From Anas platyrhynchos (lineage: Eukaryota > Chordata > Aves > Anseriformes > Anatidae): a stretch of DNA of 64,000 bases. The translations under genes and the position numbers were made by a program. The notes under the pieces were generated by a model that made no database searches, was not told where the DNA came from, and saw only the letters and a list, made by a program, of their open reading frames with translations. Each line of letters starts with the position of its first letter. Within the stretch, counting starts at the first letter, position 1. The DNA lies in NCBI RefSeq assembly GCF_047663525.1, contig NC_092617.1, positions 5,871,501-5,935,500 on the forward strand, written 5' to 3'. Positions 3,423-64,000 of the stretch are shown here, piece after piece.

Positions 3423-3736
3423 GGCTGCGGGCGGCTGCCACCTTGGATGAGTCCGGAGGGGGCCTCGTGAGTCCCGGGGGGTCCCTGACCCTGGTCTGCA
3501 AGGGCTCCGGATACACCTTCAGCAGCTACGGCATGGGATGGGTGCGACAGGCACCCGGGAAGGGGCTCGAGTACGTCGCGAGTATTAACAGCAGTGGTAG
3601 TAGCACTTACTACGCGCCGGCGGTGAAGGGACGCTTCACCATCTCCAGGAACAACGGGCAGAGCACGCTCACCCTGCAGATGAACAGCCTCAAGGCCGAA
3701 GACACCGCCACCTACTACTGCGCGAAAGCTGCTGGT
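3423..3736 (+). CDS. IGHV1: IGHV exon, intact and apparently functional
   Basis: Heavy-chain variable segment forming the antigen-binding domain up to the start of CDR3. After signal residues GLRA the mature chain begins near [10 protein letters not shown], a framework 1 typical of the single functional VH of galliform and anseriform birds. Conserved marks are the framework 1 Cys (LVCKGSG), the core Trp ([15 protein letters not shown]), RFTISR, and the framework 3 end [13 protein letters not shown]1 is near [11 protein letters not shown]2 is [11 protein letters not shown], coded largely by AGY serine codons that are AID hotspots. There is no stop or frameshift, and the coding end abuts a good RSS. 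It is the only VH in the window. Diversification by gene conversion from upstream pseudogenes is known in birds and inferred here. Confidence 0.93.
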
Positions 3737-38212: not shown

Positions 38213-38218
38213 TTTATT
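38213..38218 (-). terminator. Poly(A) signal for secreted IgA
   Basis: Reverse-strand AATAAA about 143 bases after the CH4 stop. It is followed by GCTGGTGTCTTCGTCCGGTG, a GU-rich downstream element that is part of the repeated module above. Confidence 0.75.
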
Positions 38219-56620: not shown

Positions 56621-58430
56621 GGGAGCCTGGGTATGGGGCAGGGGGGATCTGTGGGGCAGAGAGAGCTATGGGGCAGGAGCCAGCTGTGGGGTAGGGGAGA
56701 GCTATGGGGCAGGGGTAGCTATGGGGCAGGAGAGAGCTGTGGGGCTAAGCTAGTTGTGGGGCAGGGAGAGCTATGGGTCAGGGAAAGCTGTGGGTCAGAA
56801 CTAGCTATGGGGCAGAGCTAGCTATGGGGCAGAGCCAGCTGTGGGGCAGGGGTAGCTGTTTGCTATGGGGAGCTGTGGGTCAGGGAAGAGCTATGGGGCA
56901 GGAGAGAGCTGTGGGGCAGAGCTAGCTATAGGGCAGGGGAGAGCTATGGGGCAGGGGGAAGCTGTGGGGCAGAGCTAGTTGTGGGGCAGGGGTAGCTGCT
57001 TGCTAGGGAGAGCTGTGGGGCAGGGAAAGCTATGGGGCAGAGCCAGCTGTGGGGCAGAGCTAGCTATGGGGCAGGGGAGCTGTGGGGCAGAGCTAGCTAT
57101 GGGTCAAGGAGAGCTATGGGGCAGGGGAGCTGTGGGGCAGAGCTAGCTATGGGTCAGGGAGAGCTATGGGTTAGGGAGAGCAATGGGGCAGAGCTAGCTG
57201 TGGGGCAGGGGAGAGCTATGGGTCAGGGAGAGCTGTGGGGTGCAGCTAGCTGTGGGTCAGAACTAGCTATGGGGCAGGGGGAAGCTGTGGGGCTGAGCCA
57301 GCTATGGGGCAGGGGTAGCTATGGAAAGCTATGGGGCAGAGCCAGCTGTGGGTCAGGGGAGCTGTGGGGCAGGGGTAGCTGTTTGCTATGGGGAGCTATG
57401 GGGCAGGAGAGAGCTGTGGGGCAGAACTAGCTATAGGGCAGGGGAGAGCTGTGGGTCAGGGAGAGCTATGGGGCAGGGGGAAGCTGTGGGGCAGAGCTAG
57501 CTGTGGGGCAGAGCTAGCTATGGGTCAGGGAGAGCTGTGGGGCTGAGCTAGTTGTGGGGCAGGGGTAGCTGCTTGCTAGGGAGAGCTGTGGGGCAGGGAA
57601 AGCTATGGGGCAGGAGGCTAGCTGTGGGGCAGAGCCAGCTGTAGGGCAGGAGAGAGCTATGGGGCAGAGCTAGCTATGGGTCAAGGAGAGCTATGGGTTA
57701 GGGAGAGCTGTGGGGTACAGCTAGCTGTGGGTCAGAACTAGCTATGGGGCAGGGGGAAGCTGTGGGGCTGAGCTAGCTATGGGGCAGGGGTAGCTATGGA
57801 GAGCTATGGGGCAGAGCCAGCTGTGGGTCAGGGGAGCTGTGGGGCAGGGGTAGCTGTTTGCTATGGGGAGCTATGGGGCAGGAGAGAGCTGTGGGGCAGA
57901 GCTAGCTATAGGGCAGGGGAGAGCTGTGGGTCAGGGAGAGCTATGGGGCAGGGGCAAGCTGTGGGGCAGGGGTAGCTGTTTGCTAGGGAGAGCTATGGGG
58001 CAGGGAGAGCTATGGGGCAGGGAAAGCTATGGGGCAGGGAGAGCTGGGGGTCTGAGCTAGCTGTGGGTCAGAGCTAGCTATGGGTCAGGGAGAGCTGTGG
58101 GGTAAAGCTAGTTGTGGGTCAGGGGAGCTGTGGGGCAGGGAGAGCTGTGGGGCTGAGCTAGTTGTGGGGCAGGGATAGCTGTTTGCTAGGGAGAGCTGTG
58201 GGTCTGAGCTAGCTATGGGGCAGGGAGAGCTGTGGGTCAGGAGAGAGCTATGGGGCAGAGCTACTTGTGGGGCAGGGGTAGCTGTCTGCTAGGGAGAGCT
58301 GTGGGGCTGAGCCAGCTGTGGGTCAGAGCTAGCTATGGGTCAGGGAGATCTATGGGGCAGGGGAAAGCTGTGGGGCTAAGCTAGTTGTGGGTCAGGGGAG
58401 AGCTGTGGGGCTGGAGATCTCTCCGTGTCC
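56620..58430 (+). repeat. Switch upsilon region, GAGCT-rich core
   Basis: About 1.8 kb of GAGCTATGGGGCAGG, GAGCTGTGGGGCAG and GAGCTAGCTATGGG units. AGCT appears roughly every 15-20 bases and the forward strand is strongly G-rich. This closely resembles mammalian Smu (GAGCT/GGGGT) and lies upstream of Cupsilon1 in the same orientation. It should form R-loops when transcribed and is a dense AID target. The 57.00-57.35 kb block is repeated at about 57.55-57.85 kb. Confidence 0.85.
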
Positions 58431-60096: not shown

Positions 60097-60381
60097 GCAG
60101 CCCCACGGCGCCCGCCGTCTTCCCCATCTCCTCCTGCTGCGGCTCCACCCAGCAGCAGCCGGTGGTGGGCTGCTTGGCCACCGGTTACATCCCCGGTCCC
60201 GTCACCTTCTCCTGGTCCGGGGCCAGCGGGGCCACCTCGGTCACCGTCCCCGAGACCCACGGCGTCGGGCCCCACAAGCGCGCCAGCTTCCTCCGCCCGC
60301 CCCACGCGGGCGCCGGGGACTTCTTCACCTGCAGCGTCAACCACCAGGCCACCAGGACCAGCCTGACCCAGAATGTGGAAG
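60097..60381 (+). CDS. IGHY: IGHY CH1 exon (Cupsilon1)
   Basis: First constant domain of IgY, the main serum antibody of birds and the relative of both IgG and IgE. Joining the JH G gives Gly-SPTAPAVFPISSCCGSTQQQ. 95 codons, both ends in phase 1, donor GTAGGG at 60382. Ig marks are VGC, FSW and FTC. The CC pair near the start offers the light-chain disulfide. There is no N-glycosylation sequon in this exon. Same orientation as VDJ and Cmu, so expression is by ordinary deletional switching, which removes mu and alpha. Confidence 0.93.
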
Positions 60382-62510: not shown

Positions 62511-62846
62511 GTTGCGTCGCCACAGATGGCCAAAGCCCCCCCGAGGTCCAGGTCCTCCACAGCTCCGTCTGCTCCACCTTGGGCGACGACTCGGTGGAGC
62601 TCCTCTGCGTCATCACCGGCTTCTCGCCGCCCCCCGTGGAGGTGGAGTGGCTGGTGGACGGTGCCCCGGGCCACCTGGTGGCCACCATGACCCGCCCGCA
62701 GCGCGAGGCCGGCTCCAAAACCTACATGGCCACCAGCCAGACCAACGTGTCGCGAGAAGACTGGAAGGCGGGCAAGGCCTTCACCTGCCAGGTCAAGCAC
62801 CCGGCCACCGGCGTCACGGCCCAGGGCCACGCCCGCTTCTGCCCAG
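62511..62846 (+). CDS. IGHY: IGHY CH2 exon (Cupsilon2)
   Basis: Second upsilon domain, the counterpart of the IgG hinge and of IgE CH2. Acceptor CCGCCCCCCAG; entry gives Gly-CVATDGQSPPEVQVLHSSVC. 112 codons; ends RFCPG in phase 1 before GTGAGG at 62847. Ig marks are LLC, VEW and FTC. One sequon (NVS in TNVSREDW). Additional Cys at the start (GCVA), in SSVC and at the end (RFC) fit inter-heavy-chain bonds. It can be spliced to CH3 (outside the window) or to the short terminal exon at 63711. Confidence 0.94.
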
Positions 62847-62869
62847 GTGAGGAGGAGGAGGGTGGGAGA

Positions 62870-63690
62870 GGTGGTGGGATCTCGGGGGGGTTCCACTTGG
62901 TAGAAGGTGCCAGGTTCTGGTTGGGTTCCACCAGGCCTAGAAGGTTCCGTGACCATGATGGGTTCTACCAGGAGTAGGAGAAGGTTGGATGACCATGTAG
63001 GGTTCTACCAGGTGTAGAAGGTTCCAGAACCTGGTTGGGTTCTACCAGGGGTAGAAGGTTCCAGATCCTGGTAGGGTTCCACCAGCCTAGAAGGTTCCGT
63101 GACCATGATGGGTTCTACCAGGAGTAGAAGGTTCCAGAACCTGGTTGAATTCCACCAGGTGTAGAAGGTTCCAGGTCCTGGTTGGGTTCCATGAAGGTAG
63201 AAGGTTGGATGACCATGATGGGTTCTACCAGGTGTAGAAGGTTCCAGAACCTGGTAGGGTTCCACCAACCTAGAAGGTTCCAGGTCCTGGTTGGGTTCTA
63301 CCAAGGTAGAAGGTTGGATGACCATGATGGGTCCTACCAGTCTAGAAGGTTCCATGACCATGACAGGTCCTACCGGCCTAGAAGGTTGGACCACCAGGAT
63401 GGGTTCCTCCAGGGGTAGAAGGTTCCAGAACCTGGTTGGGTCCTACCAGGGGTAGAAGGTTCCAGAACCTGGTTGGGTTCCATGAAGGTAGAAGGTTGGA
63501 TGACCATGATGGGTTCTACCAGGAGTAGAAGGTTCCAGATCCTGGTTGAATTCCACCAGGTGTAGAAGGTTCCAGGTCCTGGTTGGGTTCCACCAGTCTA
63601 GAAGGTTCCATGACCATGACGGGTCCTACCAGCCTAGAAGGTTGGACCCCCAGGATGGGTTCCTCCAGCCCAGGAACCGGAGAACATCTC
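62870..63690. repeat. Upsilon intron 2: AGAAGGTTCCAGAACCTGGT array
   Basis: Units of about 45-60 bases with GGGTTCTACCAGGAGTAGAA, GGTTCCAGAACCTGGTTGGG and TTGGATGACCATGATGG. Each unit contains the near-palindrome GGTTCCAGAACC. Confidence 0.8.
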
Positions 63691-63710
63691 CACCTCTTCC
63701 CCCCCCCCAG

Positions 63711-63718
63711 AGTTCTGA
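63711..63718 (+). CDS. IGHY: IGHY deltaFc terminal exon (Glu-Phe-stop)
   Basis: After the acceptor CTTCCCCCCCCCCAG the exon reads AGTTCTGA. Joined to the final G of CH2 it gives GAG TTC TGA, Glu-Phe-stop. This is the known structure of the truncated duck IgY heavy chain, which ends after CH2 with two extra residues from an exon in the CH2-CH3 intron. The 3' untranslated part continues to a poly(A) signal at 63969. The product lacks CH3 and CH4 and so the Fc effector functions. It is the strongest pointer to an anseriform species. Confidence 0.92.
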
Positions 63719-63968
63719 CCACCTTTGTTGTCCTCCTGACCCCCCTGCTGGCCATGACCACCGACCTGGAGACCCCCCCCCTCCAAAAATTTTTGGGGAG
63801 GGGGTGTGGACAACCCAGCAGGTCCTCCTCCCCCCCCTCCACCTCTTCCTTGGACCTCAGGACAACGTCGGCCACCCGCCCGTCGCCCTGGGACCTCTCC
63901 GGAACCCCGAGGAGCGGTGGGAAAAGAAAAAAATGGAAAAAATGGAGATTTTGGTGAAAAGCAACAAA

Positions 63969-63974
63969 AATAAA
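63969..63974 (+). terminator. Poly(A) signal for IgY(deltaFc)
   Basis: AATAAA about 250 bases after the Glu-Phe-stop codon, near the window end. Competition between this site and splicing on to CH3 should set the ratio of truncated to full-length IgY. The downstream element lies outside or at the very edge of the window. Confidence 0.8.
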
Positions 63975-64000
63975 AAAGAATCAGAATCACGTGGCTGCGG

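Follow-up and report, generated by a model that had tools for sequence, protein, structure and literature searches.

The exon that begins at position 63711 of the window (the whole 64-kb stretch of DNA that was analysed) is almost certainly an alternative last exon belonging to an IgY heavy-chain gene of the anseriform type, serving IgY(deltaFc) as opposed to full-length IgY. Its splice-site letters, its reading phase, its stop codon, its poly(A) signal with the accompanying GU-rich stretch and the intact exons downstream can all be read in the DNA. The mechanism has already been described in ducks and geese, and the gene found here constitutes a well-preserved example in which the rest of the gene could also be placed. 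The initial annotation had likewise read this exon as the terminal exon of IgY(deltaFc), a reading supported by the exon itself, by its reading phase, stop codon and poly(A) signal, by its position between CH2 and CH3, by the exons downstream, by the one upsilon CH2 found in the genome and by the inverted alpha gene.

According to this reading, the upsilon pre-mRNA would have two choices after CH2. In the first, CH2 would be spliced to the 63711 exon, adding Glu-Phe-stop, and the transcript would be cleaved after the AATAAA; the product would be a secreted heavy chain of two domains that lacks CH3-CH4, i.e. IgY(deltaFc). In the second, the 63711 exon would be skipped and CH2 spliced to CH3, leading to full-length IgY in secreted or membrane form. 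The ratio of both forms would then depend on how the acceptors of the deltaFc exon and of CH3 compete with each other and with the poly(A) signal. Now that the donor, the two acceptors, the two poly(A) sites and the membrane exons are located, the whole Fc-less switch is in genomic view, and this list of parts provides a basis for minigenes that ask how the proportion of full-length and truncated IgY is determined in the course of an immune response.

Splice sites, frame and poly(A) signal of the deltaFc exon

The window holds the constant region of an avian immunoglobulin heavy-chain locus, in which the upsilon CH1 exon (60097..60381, + strand) was assigned by its reading frame and splice borders. 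The CH2 exon (62511..62846, + strand) ends as ...TGC CCA G|GTGAGG at 62846/62847, its last base being the first of a codon, and carries a donor (CAG|GTGAGG) that is common to the IgY forms. The acceptor of the terminal exon, recognized by its pyrimidine content, is formed by a polypyrimidine tract plus AG (63688..63710, + strand) and reads CCCCCCCCCCAG|AGTTCTGA, with CTCCACCTCTTCCCCCCCCCCAG directly preceding the first exon base at 63711. When CH2 was joined to this exon in silico, the G of CH2 and the following AG TTC TGA produced ...ARFCP-E-F-stop in phase, with a coding part of the exon that spans 63711..63718 (+ strand). The 3' untranslated region was assigned to 63719..63990 (+ strand), with its end marking the predicted cleavage site. 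The poly(A) signal AATAAA (63969..63974, + strand) was the sole A[AT]TAAA on the plus strand of the window past position 58,000; it is followed by CGTGGCTGCGGTGTGTGG and by GAATCACGTGGCTGCGGTGTGTGG, the GU-rich part of which runs across the window end (L004:1491-1507, where L004 coordinates are window positions minus 62500). To the base, these are the acceptor, the AG TTC TGA in phase with the final G of CH2 and the AATAAA before CH3 that had been annotated at the outset, and the splice from 62846 to 63711 is probably used.

The quality of the splice sites was also compared. Regarding pyrimidine content, the deltaFc acceptor was the top of the 104 AG sites present in 62847-63990, and its value (0.95) was above those of the acceptors of CH3 (0.75) and CH4 (0.85). 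When a stricter rule was applied (at least 18/20 pyrimidines, YAG and no other AG within 18 bases), only six sites were selected on the plus strand of the 64-kb window, among them the deltaFc acceptor and those of mu CH1 (20461), mu CH3 (23625) and upsilon CH2 (62511). The sites at 3423 and 21676, also on the plus strand, match none of the assigned exons. As for the donors, that of CH2 has 8/9 consensus letters and those of CH1 and CH3 have 7/9, whereas no good 5' splice site was detected inside the deltaFc exon (best 5/9 consensus letters), so this exon looks terminal rather than a cassette exon. Its acceptor lies 864 bases from CH2, compared to 2582 bases for the acceptor of CH3. Thus, with an acceptor that is closer and richer in pyrimidines than that of CH3 and with no good donor in the exon, a transcript would either be spliced there and end, or skip the exon.

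As the intron is rich in repeats, the acceptor and the AATAAA could be chance look-alikes, with CH2 always being joined to CH3. Products of at most two residues would indeed be obtained from 5 of the 104 AGs in 62847-63990, and 57 out of 300 shuffled versions of 62847-64000 contained A[AT]TAAA. However, when these two frequencies were combined with that of the unassigned strict-rule sites (two per 64 kb), the joint probability was about 3e-4, an approximate figure that assumes independence of the three terms. Also against a coincidence are the fact that half of the six strict-rule sites are acceptors of CH exons, the GU-rich sequence that follows the poly(A) signal, the location of the exon as a non-repeat block inside an intron otherwise full of repeats, and the matching system reported in ducks and geese in the available excerpts of three papers (PMC3315531, PMC4457835, PMC3487963). 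Chance resemblance is consequently very improbable.

An even smaller probability, close to nil, is assigned to truncation by read-through of CH2 into a retained intron, instead of by splicing to the 63711 exon. The frame of CH2 is open into the intron until 62974, which would add about 43 residues, but the CH2 donor is strong by its consensus letters, A[AT]TAAA is absent between CH2 and 63969 and a long tail is not known for the truncated IgY of the duck. The alternative last exon at 63711 is thus the preferred reading.

No second genomic copy of the terminal exon was found at E up to 1 in a DNA search in which the best candidates were scored, the only other match being the near-palindrome of the exon itself. 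This element (63773-63803), within the deltaFc 3' untranslated region, is a near-perfect inverted repeat that consists of a C-run, A5T5 and a G-run. A structured 3' untranslated region was considered and rejected, as 52 of 200 shuffles folded as well as the region of the near-palindrome (about 63773-63803; z -0.55); for the whole deltaFc exon (z -1.13), 27 of 200 shuffles were as good.

The upsilon gene and its locus

The sequence was also followed past the window end, in a genome of 1.26 Gb and 42 contigs in which the window corresponds to C31:5871501-5935500. CH3 and CH4, which the initial annotation had expected to appear upon such an extension, were both located downstream of the window end, at L004:2929-3258 and L004:4971-5305, respectively. 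CH4 ends in PGK-stop and has its own secretory poly(A) signal AATAAA at L004:5390. Further downstream are the first membrane exon (LWATIAVFITLFLLSVCYSATVTFFK), at about L004:7986-8119, and the last one (VKWLFSTVLQLKSAGGPYRNVLKEAA-stop), at about L004:8608-8688. Therefore, a single upsilon gene keeps intact CH3, CH4 and membrane exons. Between L004:8100 and 8640, there is what looks like a tandem repeat (unit of 158 bp, 2.4 copies) of the final part of the first membrane exon and the initial part of the second, leaving copies of TTCTTCAAG|GTGGGC, some of them also with CAG|GTCAAGCC. Judged by eye, these TTCTTCAAG / GTCAAGCC copies could be candidate mini-exons of 26 bases, the inclusion of which would shift the frame.

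When compared with structures in the PDB, CH3-CH4 gave its best match with the chicken IgY heavy chain 9odb (360.1 bits), and the top matches of upsilon CH2 were 9wyt (149.7 bits), which bears only the name Ig-like domain-containing protein, and 9odb (148.6 bits). When the genome was searched at the protein level with CH2, seven matches were obtained, with 100% identity for upsilon CH2 itself and 29-36% for the other six, three of which fall in this locus. Upsilon CH2 was thus found once in the 1.26-Gb genome, although this search, like that made with the terminal exon, scores the best candidates only, so the absence of further copies is not proved by either.

Upstream of upsilon, open frames with an Ig signature allowed the assignment of mu CH1-CH4 (20.4-26.2 kb, + strand) and of alpha CH2, CH3 and CH4 (42.8-38.4 kb, - strand). 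The order of the locus is therefore mu, inverted alpha and upsilon, with alpha assigned for CH2-4.

The 3' untranslated regions of these genes were compared with the deltaFc exon by local alignment. Among 300 shuffles each, 3 of the exon and 31 of the 3' untranslated region scored as high as the alignment to alpha (29). The alignment to mu (30), through a C/T-rich stretch, was equalled in 6 of 300 either way, and that to the upsilon secretory 3' untranslated region (20) in 110 of 300. By at least one control, two of these comparisons were thus nominally unusual, but the sequence aligned was of low complexity, and an origin of the exon by duplication of a secretory 3' end was not supported. When the remainder of the window was searched with the exon by blastn, the 15 matches listed were of 51-66 bases and 68-73% identity, most of them in A-rich arrays. 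As a separate observation, the poly(A) signals of alpha (secretory; 38213-38218, - strand) and of the deltaFc exon (63969-63990) both have the sequence AATAAAAAAGA, soon followed by AATCACG; the alpha context ranked 18th, with ties, among 156 AATAAA sites.

The intron minisatellite

A minisatellite of 37 bp (62900..63643, + strand) lies in the intron that separates CH2 from the terminal exon and has five exact copies of the near-palindromic GGTTCCAGAACC; the unit is of about 37 bp and is present in around 20 copies with 74-79% matches. The initial annotation was right in placing this array upstream of the exon, but the array is not restricted to that side, as the same family resumes right after the exon (L004:1517-2487, 90% matches). 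The fraction of tandem repeat was 0.00 in 63711-64016, compared to 0.86 before and 0.92 after. With the array on both sides, the deltaFc exon is a non-repeat island (roughly 340-370 bp) in an intron filled with repeats. All 11 introns measured were repeat-rich, with tandem-repeat fractions of 0.53-0.98 (0.65 for the whole 82.4 kb, some borders being approximate), and the repeats beside the deltaFc exon are therefore no special mark of it.

The minisatellite could be a regulatory array whose palindromes, or dyads resembling heat-shock elements, steer the choice of antibody form. The palindrome of the minisatellite corresponds to a heat-shock-element dyad as well. The CH2-CH3 intron holds 54 of the 77 GAAnnTTC/TTCnnGAA dyads detected in the 82.4 kb examined, 19 of them before the exon and 35 after it (62847-63710 and L004:1517-2928), as well as eight of the nine three-unit sites. 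Among 3000 shuffled 110-bp units, none matched the dyad count of the consensus unit and one contained a three-unit site. The fold of the upstream intron (z -1.77) was equalled by none of 20 shuffles. Against this proposal, the GAA/TTC motif was picked after looking and, when the 32 inverted 3-mer patterns were ranked, it was only the fourth by three-unit sites and the fifth by local clustering, so clusters of this kind are to be expected in tandem arrays. In addition, the introns measured are generally made of tandem repeats, and two pieces of the array folded with z -0.96 and -1.59, values as good being found in 33 of 200 and 14 of 200 shuffles, respectively.

The 32-pattern control thus took away most of the surprise, leaving the heat-shock-element-like dyads as a weak lead. 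Neither the fold of the minisatellite nor its dyad content stands out clearly from the controls, and control of the choice by the array is highly unlikely. The suggestion that the minisatellite could influence splicing, made in the initial annotation, accordingly found no support in the controls of fold, intron repeats and 3-mer patterns. There is an equally slim chance that fever or cell stress could slow the polymerase at the array, favouring the Fc-less antibody; if heat-shock factors bind the array in plasma cells, a stress-driven push towards this form could follow. None of the matches listed in a literature search linked IgY with heat-shock terms, and a search for minisatellites of the duck IgH locus found no matching paper.

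Comparison with known IgY systems

The alternative last exon at 63711 was compared with the systems known to produce truncated IgY. The duck upsilon gene and its three IgY forms were reportedly described by Magor et al. in 1992 and 1994 and by Lundqvist et al. in 2001, whereas goose IgY(deltaFc) is said to have been described by Huang et al. in 2016 and that of the red-eared turtle by Li et al. in 2012. Duck IgY(deltaFc) ends in Glu-Phe, two residues that are added by its exon; no statement on this ending was found among the matches of a literature search for it. For the mu chain, the choice of poly(A) site versus splicing sets whether the secreted or the membrane form of the heavy chain is made. 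This resembles the arrangement proposed here, with the difference that the secretory end of mu extends the last CH exon, whereas for deltaFc the last exon is a distinct one that has an acceptor of its own.

The available excerpts of four papers report an IgY(deltaFc) system in ducks and geese (PMC3315531, PMC4457835, PMC3338771, PMC3487963). According to these excerpts, one duck gene gives rise to full-length and truncated IgY, the latter by use of a different termination site (PMC3315531, PMC3487963), ducks turn increasingly to truncated IgY once immunised (PMC4457835), hypervaccinated ducks make it via alternative splicing (PMC3338771), and an inverted alpha gene has been described for chicken and duck (PMC3487963). 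The gene analysed here is like that of the duck, as far as these excerpts describe it, in being a single gene with predicted two-way termination and an inverted alpha in the middle of the locus, no difference between the two being evident at that level. Three features of the anseriform system were found in it: an exon between CH2 and CH3 with an acceptor, an in-phase stop after two residues and its own poly(A) signal; intact CH3, CH4 and membrane exons in that one gene; and a locus with the known order of mu, inverted alpha and upsilon.

The initial annotation had also stated that this exon fixes the bird group. However, truncated IgY is also found in some reptiles, according to the excerpt available, where it mostly derives from a single gene by splicing, while separate IgY(deltaFc) genes are suggested for some turtles (PMC4279169). 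On its own, the exon is therefore not enough to identify the bird group. Reptilian IgY(deltaFc), as described in that same excerpt, is like the product predicted here in that the last two domains are missing. A separate gene, as suggested there for some turtles, was discarded for this genome, in which one upsilon CH2 was found among the best-scoring candidates of the search.

The order of the locus and the globin matches point, though not conclusively, to a duck-like bird, and two globin exons of this genome apparently fit, also without being conclusive, a bird that is nearer to the duck than to the genus Anser. For alpha globin exon 2, the top single-copy chains of the PDB were 3eok (140.3 bits), 1faw (136.7), 1a4f (135.2) and 3wr1 (134). 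The first is presumably from duck, and we take 1faw and 1a4f to be from geese and 3wr1 from cormorant, so the score is higher with the duck chain than with those of goose. In total score, these chains were surpassed by six twice-matching ones, which were assumed to be fused human globins; for the four listed, each copy scored 103-106 bits. Beta exon 2 was identical to 3eok and to 3a59, presumably from ostrich, and differed by one residue from 1faw and 1a4f.
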